33,054 nucleotides of DNA from Chitinophagaceae bacterium (lineage in GTDB: Bacteria; Bacteroidota; Bacteroidia; Chitinophagales; Chitinophagaceae): assembly GCA_947379895.1 (NCBI GenBank), contig CANCPA010000032.1, positions 1 through 33,054 of the forward strand, in the 5' to 3' direction. The notes below the pieces were generated by a model, which worked only from the letters and a program-made list of their open reading frames with translations, was not told the DNA's origin and ran no database searches. Below, piece by piece: positions 1-32,778 of this stretch. The position numbers and the translations under genes are program-made. Within the stretch, counting starts at the first letter, position 1; each line of letters starts with the position of its first letter.

Positions 1-109
1 TAGTAATGAGGTGACCATTTAAAAATTCGTGTTTCAATTCGCTTTTTTCTTCAAACAGAAAGTATTCCTGTTCGCTTGCGAAGGTCTTCTTAATCATTTC
101 AAGTTTCAT
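1..109 (-). CDS. Uma2 family endonuclease-like protein, N-terminal part (cut by window edge)
   Basis: The minus strand from the ATG at 109 stays open for 36 codons to the left edge. The visible peptide contains EQEYFLFEEKSELKHEFLNG. This matches the start of Uma2 (DUF820) proteins, where a segment like YLxLEExSxxKHEYLxGE carries the first acidic residue of the PD-(D/E)XK-like core. A second Met at residue 5 is a possible alternative start. The rest of the gene lies outside the window. Its downstream neighbour on the same strand (420-977) is from the same family, so this is a tandem pair. Uma2 proteins are common in Bacteroidota and Cyanobacteria, often in multiple copies; their role is poorly known. 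The family call rests on a short stretch. Confidence 0.7.
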   Translation of the reverse strand, partial: MKLEMIKKTFASEQEYFLFEEKSELKHEFLNGHLIT

Positions 110-163
110 AATTAATCAATTTGTCTTTTTAATTGACAATAAAATATTCCGTCATGCTTTTAT

Positions 164-406
164 GTAGGTATAAGGCCTAAGGTATAAGGCTTGAGGCATA
201 AGGTGTAATGTGTAAGGCATATGGTGTACGGTAATCAGTATTAATTCTTAATCTTTATTTTTTTATATTCATTTTTTCCATTTACCTCACCTTATAAACT
301 CTATTTAAAAACCCAAAACCTTTTACCTTTTACATTCTAACTTATACCTTTTACCTTATCCCTTACACCTTCTCCCTTCTCCCTTTTACCTTCTACCCAA
401 TTTCCC
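164..406. repeat. Long base-skewed inverted repeat between the two Uma2 genes
   Basis: The left part (164-232) is C-poor and built of words such as aaggtataaggc and ggcataaggtgtaa. The right part is a run of 168 bases (239-406) with no G at all, built of words such as ccttttacctt and cccttacaccttctccc. The arms are loosely complementary, so the region can fold as a long imperfect hairpin. It begins 13 bases beyond the stop codon of the minus-strand gene at 420, so the 3' UTR of that gene is C-free RNA. I see no gene here. Function unknown; termination or mRNA 3'-end protection is only a guess. Confidence 0.75.
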
Positions 407-419
407 GTGAAGTAACGAC

Positions 420-977
420 TTATTCTGCCTTATAAATTTCTTTCAGAGATAAACTGACATTTATTTTATTGAGATGCACTATATCTTGTTCATTTATGAG
501 GGTTTGTGCTTGCCAATCTCCTTCCGTATCCCTAAAAAAGAATAATATAAATTGCTTTTCAGGTTCTATACATAGATAATACTGTAGTGTTTTTATTTGC
601 TGATACAATAAATACTTATCTATCAAATCTGTTTTGCGGGTAGTATCTGAGAATATTTCTACTATTAATAAGGGTTCAGCAGTAAAATATTTATCAGGAT
701 TAGGATTGCAGACAATTAAATCAGGAAAGGCAAATTCGCCCGAGGTAAGCTTTACACGAATCTTATCAAAGAAAATTCTGAAAGTGGATTTCTTCAATTT
801 TGTTTTCAGAACGAGAAAAAGATTGCCTAACAATTCATTATGTGCTATTGAAGTACCCAAAATTTCGAGTAGACTCTTTATGGGCACTACCGCTTTTGCA
901 ACCGGTGCAGTCACTACCACAGGAGTTGGAGGAGAATAAATAACGGGCCTTGCAATAACTCTACGTTTCATTATCAA
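420..977 (-). CDS. Uma2 family endonuclease-like protein with atypical N-terminus
   Basis: 185 residues. The C-terminal two thirds fit Uma2 (DUF820, restriction-endonuclease-like fold): PDLIV around D86, then PDKYF and EPLLIVEIFS with E107, then a Lys-Tyr pair around K121 in the typical DKYLLYQQI segment. GTSIAHNELLGNL (41-53) matches the family's segment after the first strand. The usual first motif (KHEYLNGE) is missing. In its place are about 35 residues rich in Pro, Val and Arg. The acidic and basic core residues of the usual active site remain, but one early Glu is lost, so activity is uncertain. It is encoded upstream of, and on the same strand as, the partial Uma2 gene at 1-109. The N-terminus may come from a recombination event or from a start codon chosen too far upstream; M3 is an equally possible start. 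Confidence 0.75.
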   Translation of the reverse strand: MIMKRRVIARPVIYSPPTPVVVTAPVAKAVVPIKSLLEILGTSIAHNELLGNLFLVLKTKLKKSTFRIFFDKIRVKLTSGEFAFPDLIVCNPNPDKYFTAEPLLIVEIFSDTTRKTDLIDKYLLYQQIKTLQYYLCIEPEKQFILFFFRDTEGDWQAQTLINEQDIVHLNKINVSLSLKEIYKAE

Positions 978-5185: not shown

Positions 5186-5290
5186 TTAGTTACATGTTAC
5201 TAGTTTCAAGTTACTGGTTGTTGTTACATGTAACTTGAATCCTGTAACTTTAATCCTGCAACCAGTAACCTGCAACCGGCATCTTGCAAC
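5186..5290. repeat. Imperfect inverted repeat downstream of rel
   Basis: GTTAC/GTAAC words dominate. caagttactggttg (5207-5220) pairs with caaccagtaacctg (5259-5272), 13 of 14. Between them lies the perfect palindrome gttacatgtaac (5223-5234). It follows the rel stop codon directly and precedes the terminator at 5296. No gene present. Confidence 0.6.
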
Positions 5291-5295
5291 CAAAC

Positions 5296-9308: not shown

Positions 9309-9340
9309 CTATAAATTCCTCTAAAAAAATACTCATAACG

Positions 9341-9389
9341 TTAAACCTAATACTTACAACTTATAACCTACAACTTAAAACTCACTATT
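9341..9389. repeat. G-free tract at the 3' end of the glycosyltransferase gene
   Basis: 49 bases without G on the plus strand (words aatacttacaacttataacc), including the glycosyltransferase stop codon at 9385-9387. In the mRNA sense it is C-free. Wording is close to the tract at the rpsG end. Confidence 0.65.
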
Positions 9390-10527: not shown

Positions 10528-10639
10528 ATTATAGTTGTTTGTGGTTAGTAGTTAGTTGATAGTGATTAGCTATTGCAAATAGGAATAAAAACTCGAACTA
10601 ACAACTAATCACAAAACACTAACCACTATTTTACCTCTT
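10526..10639. repeat. Skewed inverted repeat between the ABC exporter and glycosyltransferase genes
   Basis: 10526-10569 has no C (words gtggttagtagttagttgat). 10596-10639 has no G (words ctaacaactaatcac, aacactaaccac). The arms are imperfectly complementary. The G-free arm contains the stop codon of the ABC gene (10626-10628). Same design as 28197-28365. Confidence 0.7.
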
Positions 10640-19027: not shown

Positions 19028-21686
19028 CTGCTTGTTTTTTTCTTTCTAACTCTATTACCTCGGGTCTTGCATTTTGTACAAAGCGTTCATTACCCAATTT
19101 CTTTAATACAGATTGTAGGAATCCTTGTTGATGTGCCAAATCCTTCAGCAACTCTTGTTTCAACGCAGTGGTATCTAACTCCTTCTCACTTTCTATATAG
19201 AACTTATCTCTCTCAACAGCCACTACAATTGTATTTGCAACGGAATTGTCGGTAAATGAAATCTCTGCAGCATTAACTTGTTTAGTAAGTATAGATTCTA
19301 TTGCTTGATAATTAGCCGTATCTGCCGTTTGAATATGTAACTTAATCGTTTCCTTTGGCTTAATCTGATTCTTATTCCTTGCATCACGCAATGCGGTGAT
19401 TACCTGTTTCAACAATTCGCCTTGTTGTAAGGTATCTGCATCAGGCACTCCAATCGGTAGATTAACTTTCACACATAAATCATCTGATTGTTCTTTTAAA
19501 AGATGATAAATCTCTTCTGAAACAAAAGGCATGCCAGGATGAAGTAACTGCATCAGTTCTTCGAAGAAACCAACAGTCTTTTCATATACTTCCTTACTGA
19601 TAGGTTGTTCAAAACCGGGCTTTACCCATTCCAAATACCAACTACAAAAATCATCCCATACCAAGGAGTAGATGGTCTTCAACGCTTCGCTCAATTTGAA
19701 TTGTACCATCAAACTCTCCACCTCAGTTTTAACTTGATTTAGACGAGAAGAGAACCACTGAATTGGGAAAGGGGGTGTAGGGTGTAAGGTGTAAGGTTGT
19801 TGTTCACCTTCTACCTTAAACCTTTCTCCTTCAACCGAGGGCTGCCTTCCCTCCCACATCTTCACCAACTTAAGGGCATTCCAAAGTTTGTTATTAAAGT
19901 TTCTTCCTTGTTCTAAAGACGATTCATCGAACAATAAATCATTGCCCGCAGGGGAAGCAATCATGATTCCAAAGCGTACGGCATCTGCACCATATTGTTC
20001 AATCAACCCTAACAAATCGGGAGAGTTGCCCAATTGTTTACTCATCTTCCTGCCTTGCTTATCCCTAACCATTCCTGTGAAATACACATCTTTGAATGGC
20101 AATTGATGCTTGAATTCGTATCCCGCCATTATCATCCTCGCCACCCAAAAGAAGATGATATCCTGTCCTGTAACCAAAGTAGTGGTTGGATAATAATAGT
20201 TTATTTCCTCATTATCTGGATTACTGATGCCCTTAAATACCTCTATCGGCCATAACCAAGAAGAGAACCAAGTATCTAATACATCTTCGTCTTGAAATAA
20301 ATCATTCAAAGTCAAACTAGCATTAAAAACTTGTGCCTTTGCCAATGCTTCCTCTGCTGTTTTAGCCACAAATACATTTCCTTTTGCATCATACCAAGCA
20401 GGAATCCTTTGTCCCCACCATAACTGACGGCTGATACACCAATCCTTAATATTCTCCAACCAATGCTTATAAGTATTCTTTGTTTTTGCAGGATGAAATG
20501 TTATTTCATCACTCATCACAGCTGATATTACTTCAGGATTCTTATTAATGAATCCTTTCATATCCATAAACCATTGAAGGCTTAACCTTGATTCTATTAC
20601 TGCACCTGTTCTTTCGCTCGTTCCAACCTGCCCCTTGTAATCCTCGATTTTTTCTATTTGACCTAATGCTGCAATATCTTCTACAATCTTTTTTCTTAAA
20701 TCAAACCTGTCAACACCAACATAAGAAAGTACTAACTCAGAAGGATTCTCTTCCATTATTCCATCAGCCACAAACTTGCCTTCCGCATCGAGCGTATCAA
20801 TTGTTTTGAGGTTATGCTTACGCCCAATTTCATTATCATTCTTGTCGTGTGCAGGTGTAATTTTCAATGCACCTGTACCAAATTCTGCATCGACATAATC
20901 ATCTGCAATGATGGGAATTTTTCGATTAATGATTGGAACGATTACTTCTTTTCCAATCCATGCCTTATAACGTTCGTCATTTGGATTAACGCAGATAGCC
21001 ACATCACCTAAGATAGTCTCGGGACGGGTAGTTGCAACCATCATATAGCCCACTTCCCCTGAAGGTGTGCCTACTAAAGGATATTTAACATAGTACAACT
21101 TGCTATCAATATCCTTGAAAATGACTTCCTCATCGCTCAAAGCAGTCTTACCAACAGGATCCCAATTGACCATTCTCAACCCACGATAGATGATCCCTTT
21201 CTCGTGCAAATTGATGAAGATCTCAATGACCGATTTGTAGTAATCAGCATCCATTGTGAAAGAAGTCCGTTTCCAATCGAGGCTACAACCTATTTTCTTT
21301 AATTGTTGCAAGATGATTCCCCCATATTTCTCCTTCCATTCCCAAGCATAACTTAAAAATTCATCTCTAGATAAAGATGATTTCGCAATGCCCCTTTCCC
21401 TCAACATGCCTACTACTTTTGCCTCAGTAGCAATTGAAGCATGGTCAGTTCCAGGCACCCAACAAGCATTTTTGCCTTGCATCCTTGCCCGACGCACCAA
21501 TATATCCTGAATAGTATTGTTCAAACAATGCCCCATGTGTAACACTCCCGTAACATTGGGAGGAGGAATCACCACAGTGAATGACTCTCTACCATCGGGT
21601 TTACTGCTGAAATAGTCTTTCTCCAACCAATGTTCATACCACTTAATATCAATCAACGACGGTTCAAAATTCTTGCTTAATTCCAT
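18972..21686 (-). CDS. valS: Valyl-tRNA synthetase
   Basis: 904 residues, somewhat longer than usual. A class I aminoacyl-tRNA synthetase that charges tRNA-Val and edits mischarged Thr. The HIGH motif is HMGH at 50-53 (PPPNVTGVLHMGH), and the KMSKS motif is KMSKQ at 547-551. The editing domain spans about 190-350 (VATTRPETILGD), and IKDWCISRQLWWGQRIPAW is typical. A C-terminal coiled coil (about 840-895) is present. Residues about 612-641, in the linker before the anticodon-binding domain, are abnormal: they come from an in-frame copy of an intergenic skewed repeat (19759-19836). The last residues and stop codon come from a GC-rich repeat that overlaps the PAP2 gene. First gene of a three-gene minus-strand unit. 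Confidence 0.95.
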   Translation of the reverse strand: MELSKNFEPSLIDIKWYEHWLEKDYFSSKPDGRESFTVVIPPPNVTGVLHMGHCLNNTIQDILVRRARMQGKNACWVPGTDHASIATEAKVVGMLRERGIAKSSLSRDEFLSYAWEWKEKYGGIILQQLKKIGCSLDWKRTSFTMDADYYKSVIEIFINLHEKGIIYRGLRMVNWDPVGKTALSDEEVIFKDIDSKLYYVKYPLVGTPSGEVGYMMVATTRPETILGDVAICVNPNDERYKAWIGKEVIVPIINRKIPIIADDYVDAEFGTGALKITPAHDKNDNEIGRKHNLKTIDTLDAEGKFVADGIMEENPSELVLSYVGVDRFDLRKKIVEDIAALGQIEKIEDYKGQVGTSERTGAVIESRLSLQWFMDMKGFINKNPEVISAVMSDEITFHPAKTKNTYKHWLENIKDWCISRQLWWGQRIPAWYDAKGNVFVAKTAEEALAKAQVFNASLTLNDLFQDEDVLDTWFSSWLWPIEVFKGISNPDNEEINYYYPTTTLVTGQDIIFFWVARMIMAGYEFKHQLPFKDVYFTGMVRDKQGRKMSKQLGNSPDLLGLIEQYGADAVRFGIMIASPAGNDLLFDESSLEQGRNFNNKLWNALKLVKMWEGRQPSVEGERFKVEGEQQPYTLHPTPPFPIQWFSSRLNQVKTEVESLMVQFKLSEALKTIYSLVWDDFCSWYLEWVKPGFEQPISKEVYEKTVGFFEELMQLLHPGMPFVSEEIYHLLKEQSDDLCVKVNLPIGVPDADTLQQGELLKQVITALRDARNKNQIKPKETIKLHIQTADTANYQAIESILTKQVNAAEISFTDNSVANTIVVAVERDKFYIESEKELDTTALKQELLKDLAHQQGFLQSVLKKLGNERFVQNARPEVIELERKKQADAEARIKTIEESLAPLRP
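19759..19836. repeat. Skewed hairpin repeat inserted in frame in valS
   Basis: 19759-19804 has no C (gggtgtaaggtgtaagg words). 19803-19836 has no G (caccttctacctt words). The two arms pair loosely, as in the intergenic copy at 164-406, with which it shares the word aaggtgtaa and its complement. In the valS frame it reads VEGERFKVEGEQQ and PYTLHPTPP, residues unlike the compact linker of other ValRS proteins. Confidence 0.75.
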
Positions 21687-21981: not shown

Positions 21982-22148
21982 GTTACTACTCAGGTATTTT
22001 TACCACTAGGGTCACAAGGTTTTGAACAAAGAAAAACAAGGTAAAATATCCTATTTATATATTTACCTGTCATTTATTTTAAAAGAAGTCCTAGTGCTCC
22101 TTGTTTTTTCTCCGTTGCCCTTGTGGTAGAACCTCTTTAGTAGTAACC
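21982..22148. repeat. CACAAG-rich inverted-repeat element, copy 2 (MITE-like)
   Basis: Same architecture and length (about 167 bp) as 2639-2804. The left end gttactactcagg and the right end (reverse complement gttactactaaag) share nine exact terminal bases. Internal taccac and aaaaacaagg words are inverted on the other arm. The left ends of both copies read gttactactcagg, and both right arms carry a ccttgttttttc run and a ttgtggta segment. No gene inside. The rest of 21687-22253 shows no gene. Confidence 0.75.
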
Positions 22149-22253: not shown

Positions 22254-22562
22254 TTAAGTGAATCTATGTATTGTATTCGGAGACTCCCGCATTATTTTAG
22301 GAGACTCGCTAATTAAATGAAGAGATTGCGCAATTGTTTTAAGAGACGACTTCATTGAATTCGGAGACTCCCGCATGTTGTTAAGAGAATCACGATATGA
22401 ATGAAGAGTTATCGTAATTGTATTAAGAGACTCCATAACTGTATTAAGAAGTCTCTTAATAGTATTAAGAGACTTCTTAACACTATGAATAGACTCCATA
22501 ACAGTATTTGGAGACTCTCGAATTATAATATAATTTGATTTAGTACAACTATAAAGCTTCAT
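22254..22562 (-). CDS. Possible small heptad-repeat protein encoded by array 2
   Basis: 102 codons. After a start MKLYSCTKSNYIII, twelve heptads with the pattern (E/K)-S-(L/P)-N-(T/S)-(I/V/M)-x follow, rich in Ser, Asn, Leu and Ile. No signal peptide or known domain. Its ATG overlaps the stop codon of a 61-codon frame (22559-22744) as ATGA, a layout typical of coupled genes. However, a 21-bp array keeps any one open frame open, so the frame alone proves little. It could equally be a non-coding array. Confidence 0.3.
   Translation of the reverse strand: MKLYSCTKSNYIIIRESPNTVMESIHSVKKSLNTIKRLLNTVMESLNTITITLHSYRDSLNNMRESPNSMKSSLKTIAQSLHLISESPKIMRESPNTIHRFT
22258..22530. repeat. 21-bp tandem array 2 (twelve units plus one degenerate)
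   Basis: Twelve contiguous 21-bp units run from 22279 to 22530, each starting with a form of ggagactc or agagactc, for example ggagactcccgcattatttta and agagactccataactgtatta. A degenerate unit sits at 22258-22278. Many units hold a GGAG-A-CTCC or near palindrome. There are no indels over 252 bp. The minus-strand frame is open for 102 codons (22254-22562) and gives heptads of the type ESPNTVM, KSLNTIK, ESLNTIT. Confidence 0.88.
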
Positions 22563-26299: not shown

Positions 26300-28198
26300 T
26301 CAATATTTCCACCTTACAAATGCCTCCATAGCAGCATATTTTGTCATGCCTAGTTGTGCATACAAGTTGGCAGTACCCGCATTTCGCACTTCTGCCCTTT
26401 GCCAAAACTCTCTTGTATCACTACCTTGAAACGGTACTGCATCCTTTTGACTCTGATGAATAAATATTCCAAACCTCTTTTTAACCACTTGATCAGGACT
26501 CATTGGAATTGCCATTTCTATTTCGTCAATATCCCATTCTTGCCATGCACCCTTGTACAACCATACCCAACAATCCTTTACCCAATCATCACCGGCGGCT
26601 TTTAATCGTCTCATACTCTCAAATACAATATCCAAACATACCTTATGAGTTCCATGTGGGTCGGCAAGGTCACCGGCACAATAAATTTGCTGTGGCTTTA
26701 ACGCTCTCAACATCTTCATCGTGATTTCAATATCCTTCTCTCCCATCGGGTTCTTTTCTATCGTTCCCGTTTCGTAGAAAGGAAGATTTAAGAAATGAAT
26801 CTGTTCGTCTTTCAAACCCACATAACGGGCCGTAGCCTTTGCCTCACACCGCCTGATTAACCCCTTAATTGCCCTGATATCAGCACTATCTGCCTGATGT
26901 AGTTTCTTGGAAGAGAGGTAAGACTTTGCCTCTTTCAATATCTGCTGACTCTTATTACTATCTATATCAAACATGTGTTCAAAACCTACAGCAAAGTCCA
27001 TGAAACGAGTGACAAATTCATCAGTCACTGCGATGTTTCCACTTGTCTGATAGGCTACATGCACATCATGCCCCTGTTCCACCAAACGCATGAAGGTGCC
27101 ACCCATACTGATAATATCATCATCAGGGTGTGGTGAAAACACTAGGCATCGCTTTGGATAAGGGGAACTTCTTTCAGGATGCGCAGGAATATGAACATTA
27201 GGTTTTCCTCCGGGCCACCCTGTAATGCTATCCCTTAGCATATAATAGACCTGTAGATTTATTTCGTAAGAATCGCCCTTCTCAACAATCAAATCACTCA
27301 ACCCATTTTCGTTATAATCATTTGTGGTCAAACTAAGAATTGGCTTATTCAACTTTAAAGAAGTATTCACCACTGCTCGCTTAATCATTTGATTCGTCCA
27401 CTCACAACCTCCTGCCAACCAAGGAGATTTGAAACGGGTTAAATCACCCGACGCCAATTCATCAATAACAAATGTGCAATCATGGTGTTGTTGCAAGATA
27501 CTTGCAGGCACTTGTTCAGTCACAATACCCTCCACACTCTCTGCAACAATTGCCGACTTATTACCCCAAGCCATCAGGATTACCTTCTTTGCTTTCAGGA
27601 TAGTACTGATACCCATCGTAATAGCCATTCGTGGCACTTGAGAAATGCCTTGAAAATCTCGGGCATTCGCAATACGGGTGCTATTTTCTAAGGTAACCAA
27701 TCGAGTAATAGAGAACAAACTACTGCCAGGTTCATTGAAACCAATATGTCCATTATTACCAATACCTAGAATCTGCAAATCAATACCGCCTGCTTTTTCG
27801 ATAGTCTCCTCATATTGACGGCAATATTGTTTGATACCTTCCTTCGGCAATTCGCCATTAGGAATATTGATATTTTCAGGCAAAATATCTACATGATTAA
27901 ATAAATGACGGTGCATGAAACTCCAATAGCTCTGAAAGGCATCCCGCTCAATCGTATAGTACTCATCAAGATTGAAAGTGACCACATTTTTAAAACTCAA
28001 TCCTTCTTCTTTATGAAGTTTTACCAACTCGGCATACAATCCGATTGGCGTAGAACCTGTTGCCAAGCCTAGTACACACTGCTGTCCGAGCGATTGCTTT
28101 TCTTTAATTAAGGTAGCCATCTCAAGTGCCACCAAACGAGCCCCGTCTTTAGGAGTCTTTGCAATCCGAACGGGAATCTTTTCAAAACTGTCTATCAT
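26300..28198 (-). CDS. nagB: Glucosamine-6-phosphate deaminase fused to a PIG-L/LmbE deacetylase-like domain
   Basis: 632 residues, more than twice a plain NagB. Residues 1-265 are NagB: LGLATGSTPIGLY (43-55), the TFNLDEY loop with D78, and GIGNNGHIGFNEP (145-157) with H151. It converts glucosamine-6-P to fructose-6-P and ammonia. The E. coli Asp two before that His is Asn here. Residues about 345-625 are a PIG-L/LmbE-type domain: CLVFSPHPDDDIISMGG with H357 and D359/D360 as zinc ligands, and DPHGTHKVC with the third His. PIG-L enzymes remove acetyl from GlcNAc groups. This fusion is known in Bacteroidota. With no nagA in the window, deacetylation by this domain is a fair hypothesis. Downstream of a NagP-like permease and a PL8 lyase. 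Confidence 0.93.
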   Translation of the reverse strand: MIDSFEKIPVRIAKTPKDGARLVALEMATLIKEKQSLGQQCVLGLATGSTPIGLYAELVKLHKEEGLSFKNVVTFNLDEYYTIERDAFQSYWSFMHRHLFNHVDILPENINIPNGELPKEGIKQYCRQYEETIEKAGGIDLQILGIGNNGHIGFNEPGSSLFSITRLVTLENSTRIANARDFQGISQVPRMAITMGISTILKAKKVILMAWGNKSAIVAESVEGIVTEQVPASILQQHHDCTFVIDELASGDLTRFKSPWLAGGCEWTNQMIKRAVVNTSLKLNKPILSLTTNDYNENGLSDLIVEKGDSYEINLQVYYMLRDSITGWPGGKPNVHIPAHPERSSPYPKRCLVFSPHPDDDIISMGGTFMRLVEQGHDVHVAYQTSGNIAVTDEFVTRFMDFAVGFEHMFDIDSNKSQQILKEAKSYLSSKKLHQADSADIRAIKGLIRRCEAKATARYVGLKDEQIHFLNLPFYETGTIEKNPMGEKDIEITMKMLRALKPQQIYCAGDLADPHGTHKVCLDIVFESMRRLKAAGDDWVKDCWVWLYKGAWQEWDIDEIEMAIPMSPDQVVKKRFGIFIHQSQKDAVPFQGSDTREFWQRAEVRNAGTANLYAQLGMTKYAAMEAFVRWKY

Positions 28199-28365
28199 AA
28201 TTGTTAATTATTAATTATTAATGGTTAGTTGTAGGTAGTTATTAGTGGTTAGTGGTTAGTGGTTAGTGATTTTATATAAATTGAAATTAATATAAAATTC
28301 ATAACTCATAACTTATATCTCATATTTCATCACTAACAACTAATAACTAACCACTAACAACTAAA
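28197..28365. repeat. Skewed inverted repeat between nagP-like gene and nagB
   Basis: 28197-28299 has no C (103 bases, words ttagtggttagtggttag). 28284-28365 has no G (82 bases, words ctaataactaaccactaac and cataactcataacttatatc). The outer arms pair well, for example gttattagtggttag with ctaataactaac. The G-free arm contains the stop codon of the permease gene. The clearest example of the class. Confidence 0.8.
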
Positions 28366-29623
28366 GTTTGTGCCCTTCCACTGCGTAATACCAAATAAAT
28401 AAATAACACGGCAACACGCACACTACAAATGCCAACTGATTGGCTAGATGAAAACTATCTTTTAATGTGCCATACAATAGCGGAACTAGTGCCCCACCTA
28501 CAATACCCATTATCAATAATGCCGCACCTGTTTGTGTGAACTTTCCAAGCTTGTTGATAGCTAAAGGGAAAATCGCAGGCCACATAATAGCATTTGCCAA
28601 ACCTAACAAAGAGATAAACACAATTGCCGTATAACCTGTAGTGAAATATGCCAAGAAGGAAAATAAGATACCGATGATTGCTGCAACCTTCAATGCGCCC
28701 TGTTGTGTAATATATTTAGGAATTGTCAGAATCCCGATAACATAACCTGCCAACATTGATATCAAGGTATAAGTGGTAAAATATTTTGTTTGGTCTAAGG
28801 GGATTCCCATTGCCTTACCATAACTACCAATTGCATCTCCTGCCATCACTTCTACTCCCACATAAACGAAAATGCAAATAACACCTAACAATAAATGAGG
28901 GAATTGAAAGATACTTGTCTTGTGTGTTTCTGTACCATCGGGATTCGTTTCTTCCTCTGCAACTATTTCAGGTAATGATGAGAAATAAATAATGACGGAC
29001 AATATCAATAAAACGATTGCCAAAACGATATAAGGTGGAATGATTTTCTGACTTAATTCATTTAATAAAATCCCCTTTTGAATAGGGTCGAGGGTTTGCT
29101 GAATATTATTTTCAATGACACTCGCATTGTTTAGTAATACCGCACCGAGTACTAAAGGACTCAATGCCCCTGCAACCTTATTGCAAATACCCATGATACT
29201 GATACGCTTTGCAGCACTCTCAACAGGGCCTAGAATACTCACATACGGATTGACGGCAGTTTGTATGAGTGCCAAACCCATTCCCTGACTAAACAAGCCA
29301 ATCAAAAACAAGGGAAACTGTCTTGTATAAGCCGCAGGAATGAATATCAACGACCCCAAAGCCATGATGAATAGTCCTAACGACATTCCTTTTTTATAGC
29401 CTGTAGCCTTCAAAATATAAGAAGATGGGAGGGCCAAAAAGAAGTAGGCGGTATAAAATGCGAAGGTTACAAAGAAGGCCTGCACATCGCTTGTCAACTG
29501 ACAAGTTAACTTTAAGAAAGGAATCAAGGTGCCGTTTAGCCATGTAACGAACCCAAATGTGAAGAACAACACACACATCATCATGATGGGGTAGAAATTA
29601 GATTTACTCGCTGCTTTTGTCAT
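28361..29623 (-). CDS. Sugar MFS permease, FucP/NagP type
   Basis: 420 residues, about 12 membrane helices. FTFGFVTWLNGTLIPFLK (21-38) is the signature of the FucP (fucose/glucose/galactose proton symporter) family, as are QGMGLALIQTAVNPYVSILGP and the first-half ALPSSYILKATGYKKGM loop. NagP, the N-acetylglucosamine permease of several Bacteroidota and Gammaproteobacteria, is in this family, and the downstream nagB makes GlcNAc or a related amino sugar the best guess. It lies 71 bases after the PL8 lyase gene and upstream of nagB on the same strand. Confidence 0.88.
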   Translation of the reverse strand: MTKAASKSNFYPIMMMCVLFFTFGFVTWLNGTLIPFLKLTCQLTSDVQAFFVTFAFYTAYFFLALPSSYILKATGYKKGMSLGLFIMALGSLIFIPAAYTRQFPLFLIGLFSQGMGLALIQTAVNPYVSILGPVESAAKRISIMGICNKVAGALSPLVLGAVLLNNASVIENNIQQTLDPIQKGILLNELSQKIIPPYIVLAIVLLILSVIIYFSSLPEIVAEEETNPDGTETHKTSIFQFPHLLLGVICIFVYVGVEVMAGDAIGSYGKAMGIPLDQTKYFTTYTLISMLAGYVIGILTIPKYITQQGALKVAAIIGILFSFLAYFTTGYTAIVFISLLGLANAIMWPAIFPLAINKLGKFTQTGAALLIMGIVGGALVPLLYGTLKDSFHLANQLAFVVCVLPCYLFIWYYAVEGHKL

Positions 29624-32077: not shown

Positions 32078-32778
32078 GCTTTTAAGTTTTCAGCTATAAT
32101 TTCTACAACCTCGCCTCGTTGTCTGAGTATGGCAACACCATTTTCTTTTGCAAACTTTTCAACTCTTTTATCAAACGAAAAACTTGCGATACCCAAATAG
32201 AAAATGCGATTGGCATAAGTGGGGAAAAGTATTCTAAAATTGCTTACTTTCTTTTCTATCAATTTCACCACATCTTCTTCCTTTGCATTGTATTTACACT
32301 CAATGAGTGCAACATTTTTTCCATTAAACATTGTTATGTCAAATTCATCTTCTAGATTAGGTATTTTATTGTGAAGATTCTTGCTTATCTCATCAAAATT
32401 CAGATTACCGAGTCTTTTGTCATCCTCCAATGAATTAAAAAAGTATTCTTCTGTACTTAAACCATGACTGTTTGCCATTCCCCCAATATGAATGCCCAAA
32501 CTTTTTAATTTTTCATCTGTCTTTTTCATCTGTTCATCCGTCTTTTTCATTTGTTCATCTGTCTTTCTCATTTGCTCATCTGTCTTTTTCATTTGTGCAC
32601 TCGTCTCCTTAACAATTGCACTAGCTTCTCTAATATCAGCACTTGTTTCTCTAATCATTAGCTTTAATTCAGCATTTGCAGCGCGTGACTCTTCAAAATA
32701 AAGTCGCATCTCTTCCTCTGTTTTAGCATGAGCATCAGCTAAATAAGCAAACTTTATATTCAATTCATTTTCTGTCAT
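32071..32778 (-). CDS. Coiled-coil protein with PD-(D/E)XK nuclease-like domain (DUF3782-like)
   Basis: 235 residues from the Met at 32778 (MTENELNIKFAYLADAHAKT); an ATG at 32793 would add five. Residues about 20-95 form a long coiled coil whose centre (KKTDEQM repeats) is coded by a 21-bp tandem repeat. The C-terminal domain has EDEFDITMFNG and VALIECKYNA: Asp, then Glu-x-Lys 13 residues on, the PD-(D/E)XK pattern, then LIEKKVSNFRILFP and a strand IFYLGIASFSF. Such proteins are common in Bacteroidota and Cyanobacteria and are annotated as DUF3782 or nuclease-like; role unknown. No partner methylase or toxin gene lies beside it, at least up to the right edge (32794-33054 shows no gene). Confidence 0.8.
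   Translation of the reverse strand: MTENELNIKFAYLADAHAKTEEEMRLYFEESRAANAELKLMIRETSADIREASAIVKETSAQMKKTDEQMRKTDEQMKKTDEQMKKTDEKLKSLGIHIGGMANSHGLSTEEYFFNSLEDDKRLGNLNFDEISKNLHNKIPNLEDEFDITMFNGKNVALIECKYNAKEEDVVKLIEKKVSNFRILFPTYANRIFYLGIASFSFDKRVEKFAKENGVAILRQRGEVVEIIAENLKAY
32503..32652 (-). repeat. 21-bp (heptad) tandem repeat inside the nuclease-like gene
   Basis: About seven units of 21 bp coding for heptads. On the plus strand the best preserved read tctgtctttttcatctgttc and close variants, giving KKTDEQM four times and then diverged ETSAQM, EASAIV and ETSADI units. Real coiled-coil coding repeats, and a control for the two non-genic 21-bp arrays. Confidence 0.85.

Follow-up and report, generated by a model that had tools for sequence, protein, structure and literature searches.

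We analyzed a window of 33,054 nucleotides from a Chitinophagaceae bacterium (GenBank assembly GCA_947379895.1, contig CANCPA010000032.1, positions 1 to 33,054; hereafter "the window"), in which the valine-tRNA ligase gene (valS; protein, ValRS) carries an in-frame hairpin of approximately seven-base units at about 19769-19831 (Table 1). On the plus strand, positions 19760-19804 contain no C and positions 19803-19836 contain no G. A first-pass annotation, made from the letters of the sequence, had noticed these two skewed arms, and in a folding test they do pair, with -30.5 kcal/mol on the minus strand (z -2.97; 0 of 200 shuffles equally good) and -34.1 kcal/mol on the plus strand (z -2.60; 2 of 200 shuffles equally good). 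Tandem Repeats Finder reports a period of 7 at 19774-19797 and of 14 at 19809-19836. The word AAGGTGTAA lies at 19786 and again, with one mismatch, at 19779. The annotation had also seen the same word in the intergenic copy at 164-406, where it is found at 200 and, on the minus strand, at 363. With at most one mismatch, AAGGTGTAA has 24 matches in the window, compared to 11.9 +/- 3.6 in shuffled sequences, and 0 of 100 shuffles reach 24. For AAGGTGTAAGGTGTAAGG, with at most two mismatches, there are 87 matches in the whole genome (overlapping ones counted) and none for the reversed control.

The residues coded by the hairpin fall in the linker between the catalytic core and the anticodon-binding domain, as had been supposed: the Pfam domain tRNA-synt_1 ends at residue 585 and Anticodon_1 begins at residue 643. 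The size of the insert, originally put at 28-30 residues, needs correction. As delimited here, the linker has 32 residues; most relatives that lack period 7 have 16-23, which puts the excess at about 9-16 residues. The linker of Thermus ValRS (1GAX), the sole solved relative at an E-value of 1E-50, is 16 residues shorter. An AlphaFold2 model built with 46 sequences has a mean predicted local distance difference test score (pLDDT) of 83.6 and shows the insert as a loop: residues 619-636, which sit between helices 588-612 and 640-661, score below 50. The repeat is thus predicted to code part of a disordered loop between the two domains, and it is probably a neutral protein spacer. Three further sites at which arrays occur in ValRS proteins, described below, lie in loops or at a helix end in the same model.

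Is the heptad period peculiar to this gene? We collected 94 ValRS loci, 80 from named relatives (the nearest being uncultured Chitinophagaceae) and 14 from the genus of the window. Nine yielded no open frame by motif and three more lacked the linker anchors, leaving 85 genes and 82 linkers. At a score of at least 0.75, 18 of the 82 linkers are periodic at lag 7 (17 of 81 when L031 and L114, which are one contig, are merged) and none at any of lags 4, 5, 6, 8, 9, 10 and 11. At 0.7 the count is 21 at lag 7, with one at lag 8, two at lag 11 and none at the remaining control lags. Whole genes give 33 lag-7 segments in the 85 genes, compared to 0, 0, 1 and 0 at lags 5, 8, 10 and 11. These segments cluster near residues 210 (three), 453-458 (twelve), 613-639 (sixteen) and 746 (one), with one more before the start. 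On a 93-row tree, to which 10 more distant genes were added and from which L123 and L031 were omitted, the first three sites (210, 453-458, 613-639) have 4, 12 and 15 positive rows and require 4, 9 and 13 state changes, respectively.

The first-pass annotation had proposed aligning relatives and looking for a clean absence of the insert. The linkers are indeed not all of equal length: in most of the family they have 16-23 residues and lack period 7, while in the window's species and the closest relatives that have two-arm hairpins they span 31-46. In seven relatives (L053, L069, L072, L074, L079, L080, L120), whose linkers are of ordinary length (19-24 residues), the array has one arm. Such arrays look like a recoding of the linker and not like a clean insertion.

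Within the genus we compared 13 genomes, one per species (G000, the source of the window, to G012). The word in the valS linker differs among them: AAGGTGT in G000; AAGTTGT in G009, G008 and G007; CGGTTAA in G012, G002, G010 and G011. The linker of G003 is long but not periodic at 7, that of G005 is short, and G006 has a single arm; the ValRS sequences of G001 and G004 are partial. In a ValRS tree of the congeners (variable columns removed, quick method, Shimodaira-Hasegawa-like approximate likelihood ratio support), G000 and G009 are sisters (68) within a group of G008, G012, G000 and G009 (94), joined next by G007 (97). Read on this tree, the word has changed at least three times at this site, one change between AAGTTGT and AAGGTGT being a single base per unit. 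Since congeners hold arrays with other words at the same place, the valS array is older than the window's species.

Arrays of this kind are found in frame in at least seven proteins of the congeners: ValRS, TrpG, TrpE, LigA, Mfd, IspE and HscA. Tolerance by an essential enzyme, which had been proposed for ValRS, thus extends to several core proteins, and the expected further coding copies in loops are present in these as well as elsewhere in ValRS. Genes other than valS and trpG were located by searching the 13 genomes with two repeat peptides, so they are examples and not a census. For TrpG, clear two-arm hairpins occur in six of the 13 congeners (G000, G003, G007, G008, G011, G012), one-arm or weaker arrays in four (G001, G002, G006, G010), and nothing clear in G004, G005 and G009. 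The six hairpins use two clearly distinct word classes, ACTCAC-like and CGGTTAA, and the hairpin of G000 is matched in its sister G009 by a shorter, weakly folding segment. The LigA loops were covered in 11 of the 13 congeners (all except G009 and G012): G010 has a 78-residue segment whose hairpin folds at -68.6 kcal/mol over 234 nucleotides and -82.9 kcal/mol over 270, and G003 has 26 residues at that site with intact flanks, 156 nucleotides of heptad hairpin being absent. Shorter hairpins are found in G002, G008 and G007, while G000 and G011 have 46 and 48 residues without a hairpin. Mfd has an array in G008, TrpE in G012, IspE in G006, G010 and G011, and HscA in G009 and G012, the last two being one-armed without a clear two-arm hairpin. 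Each of LigA, Mfd, IspE, HscA (G009), ValRS and TrpG clears one or more NCBIfam cut-offs; TrpE, with 392 bits against an NCBIfam cut-off of 517.7, does so for Pfam only.

Among these genes, ispE of G006 (L301 671-1732, plus strand) has the longest coding array seen, approximately 77 residues in eleven seven-residue periods of CGGTCAA/CGGTCGA type. In L290, L293 and L216, long heptad arrays that are open in frame lie directly upstream of likely starts; we excluded them from the counts, and gene callers may extend proteins into such leaders. In L157 (17929-19998, minus strand) and L185 (481-10782, minus strand), one-arm heptad arrays code a linker that precedes a C-terminal stretch beginning YPNPL or FPNPL, which we take to resemble a type IX secretion sorting domain.

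How do such repeats stay readable? In 32 coding segments, the sense frames 0, 1 and 2 contain 0, 70 and 116 stops (186 out of frame) and the antisense frames 105, 58 and 89; the zero arises partly from case selection, the genes having been chosen as open frames. The stop load of the other frames shows how narrow the path is for an array that remains in frame.

The complementarity of the arms holds within word classes. In 16 coding hairpins, mean arm pairing is 16.7 with the own partner, 17.0 with an arm of the same class from another gene or species, and 5.8 with an arm of a different class. In all 16 hairpins the own arm scores above every partner of a different class, by a small margin for the two ACTCAC-like TrpG words; the hairpins were preselected for folding, which makes the own score high by choice, and the classes were set by hand. 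Because arms of other words do not fit, both arms must have changed; arms of one class, for their part, fit across genes.

The words themselves are unevenly spread over the 13 genomes. We counted three of them, with overlapping matches and coding copies included. AAGGTGT has 87 matches in G000, 17 in G012, 15 in G009, 9 in G006 and 0-4 in the others. CGGTTAA has none in G000, G004 and G009, 1-2 in G001 and G005, and 21-57 in the other eight. AAGTTGT is found in all 13, with 1 to 248 matches. Reversed controls stay at 0-7 matches in each genome; the exception is AAGTTGT in G006, with 40. Arrays of the CGGTTAA class occur in valS or trpG of seven of the eight genomes rich in that word and were seen in none of the five poor ones, of which G001 and G004 have partial ValRS sequences (Fisher p-value 0.0047, uncorrected for kinship).

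Most of the arrays lie outside genes. We scanned 60 stretches of G000 together with the window (1.23 Mb in total) at lags 4 to 30. Lags 7, 14, 21 and 28 give 30, 35, 52 and 14 intergenic and 4, 3, 7 and 0 coding arrays, whereas every other lag gives 0-2 of each. These scans define 124 period-7 elements with many words, 111 of them outside predicted genes. A further count over 1.20 Mb finds 72 lag-7 segments, with lags 4-6, 8-13 and 15 giving 1-13 each. The 80 named loci hold 46, nine of which share a single locus; ten other lags yield 24 in total. Because only part of the arrays fold, we define the class by its period 7, with hairpins as a subset.

Their placement bears on the suggestion that the class is not only a terminator, which is borne out because coding copies exist. 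A terminator-like restriction to the 3' ends of genes is not found, although the intergenic copies do avoid divergent gaps: with a stricter cut, and with uncurated open frames of at least 100 codons as gene models, their density is 0.42 per kb in co-directional (44 elements) and convergent (10 elements) gaps and 0.07 per kb (3 elements) in divergent ones. Proteins have repeatedly acquired repeats of a class that is frequent in intergenic DNA. Beyond the family there is no more than a hint of spread: in 0.39 Mb from 20 genomes of the same taxonomic class, 5 of which belong to the family, we find five lag-7 and nine lag-14 segments, with 0-3 at each other lag. The motif recovered ten of their 20 ValRS genes, and one of the ten has a coding array. 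An assembly artefact was considered and ruled out by a one-contig genome (G045) with a hairpin in the residue-210 loop of ValRS, and by one-arm coding arrays in the isolates Lacibacter cauensis, Chitinophaga rupis and Sediminibacterium goheungense.

Table 1. Features of the window discussed in the text (positions in the window)
Feature	Position	Strand	Remarks
valS, valine-tRNA ligase, 904 amino acids	18972..21686	-	PRK05729, 1059 bits (cut-off 704)
C-free arm of the in-frame heptad hairpin	19769..19797		plus-strand word AAGGTGT; downstream G-free arm in the mRNA
Complementary arm	19806..19831		upstream G-rich arm in the mRNA; units AAGGTTT, AAGGTAG, AAGGTGA; no in-frame stop
Intergenic period-7 element	164..406		word family of the valS insert; arms on both strands
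Intergenic period-7/14 array	5187..5292		different word
Intergenic period-7 array	9328..9387		AACTTAC word
Intergenic heptad hairpin	10529..10630		TTAGTTG/AACTAAC word; same word at the orthologous site of G009, both arms longer
Intergenic heptad hairpin	28191..28369		TTAGTGG/AACCACT word

The window contains other repeats. Two frames, at 22254-22562 and 32501-32596 (both minus strand), have 21-base repeats (three times seven) that code LNT..ES.. and KTDEQMK repeats, and the first of them folds strongly (-52.7 kcal/mol). Another 21-base repeat, at 2063-2193, lies outside the listed long frames and has a palindromic core, TCTTGGA/TCCAAGA. Upstream of valS, a stretch of approximately 170 bases (21982-22147) has at least 20 dispersed matches in G009 at 70-91% identity; in six other congeners, the matches listed include two partial ones, both in G010. 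It is possibly a repeat resembling a miniature inverted-repeat transposable element.

Turnover can also be followed at intergenic sites. In spacers whose alignment is broken between G000 and G008 (n = 13), arrays lie on both sides in one, on one side in three and on neither in nine; between G000 and G009 (n = 6), the counts are one, three and two. Spacers aligned unbroken are excluded from these counts, and two of those keep their word. At L169 9870-10000, G000 and G009 have different words on both arms. G009 is 67% complete, and its sample was picked partly through AAGGTGT matches, which biases its array rate. One G009 contig (G009:C536, L221) is identical to window 1-480 over 381 bases and has the same contig start, with valS approximately 88% identical in DNA. 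This suggests a shared or mis-binned contig, and it was left out of the spacer comparison.

We read these observations as a fast-turning class of heptanucleotide arrays, often self-complementary, that is tolerated in protein loops. Tandem seven-base units occupy both arms of a hairpin in many copies and a single arm in others, and the word varies by locus and genome. The valS insert would be one copy of this dispersed class in the genus, and we assign a probability of roughly 0.57 to this reading together with the following scheme of copying, slipping and switching. Arrays would lengthen and shorten through slippage. In two-arm arrays, template switching (quasipalindrome correction) may rewrite one arm from the other, and words may spread among loci by ectopic copying or conversion. 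Selection would purge copies from 5' regulatory regions and from proteins, sparing those that are in frame and free of stops at flexible loops. The first-pass annotation had left it at "move or grow in place"; sites do differ between congeners, as in LigA and TrpG. Some copying between loci is likely because the words are lineage-specific, and some growth in place because sites keep their word while both arms lengthen and because one-arm arrays sit in ordinary linkers. It is tempting to go further and picture an active process that copies palindromic seven-base arrays from a lineage's stock of words into intergenic DNA and the loops of core proteins, swapping the word while keeping the hairpin and the frame. 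We think this stronger version possible, though unlikely.

Several observations weigh against our reading and have lowered our confidence in it somewhat. Template switching and slippage were not observed; nor was transposition seen or a mobiliser found (Y1_Tnp search, 13 genomes). Sampling is one genome per species. The enrichment of hairpins over the whole class is moderate: 41 of the 111 intergenic elements have z below -2 and 26 below -3, compared to 24 and 17 of 111 array-free intergenic windows, and ungapped inverted repeats have the same median as random places (8), with an upper quartile of 13 against 8. In a fold scan of coding windows in G000, 11 windows exceed an excess of 0.15 at lag 7 and 8 and 10 do so with two control lag sets; at 0.2 the counts are 2, 0 and 1, and valS itself clears only the laxer cut. 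The 40 reversed AAGTTGT matches in G006 compare with one for the pattern itself, another word being common there and uncounted. Finally, the valS and trpG words are often unlike within one genome.

Among the alternatives, growth purely in place, with slippage and hairpin correction at each locus and no exchange between loci, accounts for several cases. At 10529-10630, G000 and G009 share a word, and each arm is longer in G009; the valS arms of these two species can be aligned in a single phase, with differences mainly at one position per unit; and the one-arm arrays sit in linkers of ordinary length. Against it, the word counts are lineage-specific, and G000 and G009 lie inside a CGGTTAA-rich clade yet lack this word (G009 with the incompleteness given above), which would need independent change or loss at every site. 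We think it a possible explanation, though an unlikely one.

A transposable palindromic element, that is, a defined unit moved by an enzyme, would be expected to leave in-frame copies in unrelated genes and single-site differences between congeners, as found here, and arms of the same class do fit between valS and trpG. Repetitive extragenic palindromic (REP) sequences, which associate with REP-associated tyrosine (RAYT, Y1) transposases, and the Rickettsia palindromic elements would be models. However, Y1_Tnp is present in nine of the 13 congeners, and G007, which is 99% complete and has many arrays, has none at an E-value of 1E-10. Unlike REP/RAYT systems, 0 of 15 Y1 loci (approximately 42 kb) are flanked by a period-7 array, where just two or three would be expected by density. 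The copies that we read show no fixed ends or body beyond the seven-base word. We consider such an element improbable.

Could the hairpin be a selected device that sets the pace at which core-gene mRNAs are translated or decay, or could the loop have a protein function? The recurrence at the same ValRS loops in many lineages and the scarcity of intergenic copies between divergent genes would fit. The arrays are absent from many relatives, though, their words, lengths and arm numbers vary, and the loop is predicted to be disordered; selection for such a role thus seems quite improbable to us. Still harder to accept is a hairpin that escapes translation through ribosomal skipping or splicing, like the bypassing elements that the available text of PMC6649704 reports for yeast mitochondria. 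Hairpins as strong as that of LigA within frames would suit it, but the absence of in-frame stops from the 32 coding segments, against 186 in other frames, speaks for translation, even if case selection contributes. An ordinary hypervariable linker with repeats by chance or codon bias draws on the family-wide variation in length and sequence, but it is scarcely credible, because seven is not a multiple of three, so that amino-acid repeats cannot yield the period, because the control lags reject it (none of 82 linkers at the strict cut; one segment in 85 genes over four lags), and because the arms pair.

Repeats within core proteins are known from few systems. Here the unit is not a multiple of three and the arms often contain stop triplets, yet within a single genus the arrays lie in internal loops of seven core proteins or more, where orthologous presence, absence and word change are documented. 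The entry of palindromic repeats into proteins and the upkeep of arm complementarity thereby become testable in environmental isolates. For annotators there is a caution: such loops are not conserved protein features. Active copying from a word stock, if true, would let selfish DNA supply protein sequence by a new route. In a search that left most subscription journals outside, we found no published description of heptad hairpins lying in frame in Bacteroidota, or of such hairpins in the internal loops of core proteins.

Several known systems are related. The Rickettsia palindromic elements are nearest in setting, with in-frame palindromic inserts in unrelated genes, as in ValRS, TrpG, TrpE, LigA, Mfd and IspE here. 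Copies of those elements share one element sequence. In our arrays, by contrast, no shared body is seen, the word changes by site and species, and arms of different classes do not fit each other. The accessible parts of two papers describe the Rickettsia repeats as lying in protein genes whose function is kept (PMC6649704; PMC2635572). The first of them also describes inverted repeats in translated mitochondrial genes of Nematomorpha that are gained and lost between species, with template switching proposed; those palindrome arms are perfect and long and code conserved parts of proteins, and its accessible text mentions no seven-base units (PMC6649704). Template switching homogenises the arms of inverted repeats and can alter coding DNA, as far as the available text of two papers goes (PMC8604942; PMC8794818). 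It is a mechanism and not an element, and alone it does not give tandem seven-base units.

The unit itself is familiar from heptanucleotide simple sequence repeats (SSRs). According to the part of the report available to us, TAACTGA repeats occur in Beggiatoaceae, Cyanobacteria and five Bacteroidetes, and heptanucleotides are the commonest SSR class in most genomes surveyed (PMC4679880, also relaying Mrazek et al. 2007). As there, tandem seven-base units far exceed other periods in our genomes. The repeats described in that text consist of a single word repeated directly, apart from one inverted case, and those that MacGregor placed in reading frames are direct and mainly near protein ends (PMC4679880), whereas the arrays described here use many words, frequently have two complementary arms and include coding copies located in internal loops of core proteins. 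Closest in structure is the P6b stem-loop of the Nostoc tRNA-Leu(UAA) group I intron: the consulted portion of the paper describes heptanucleotide units in the word classes TDNGATT and NNTGAGT, and at this fixed site the whole hairpin has been swapped for the other class several times (PMC4476775). The likeness extends to seven-base units on both hairpin arms (the 16 coding hairpins, LigA, Mfd, TrpE and IspE, though not every array) and to the replacement of a word class at a fixed site (valS, and L169 9870-10000 compared to G009). The Nostoc repeats belong to the RNA of an intron; those described here occupy open coding frames and intergenic DNA, at many loci and with many words per genome.

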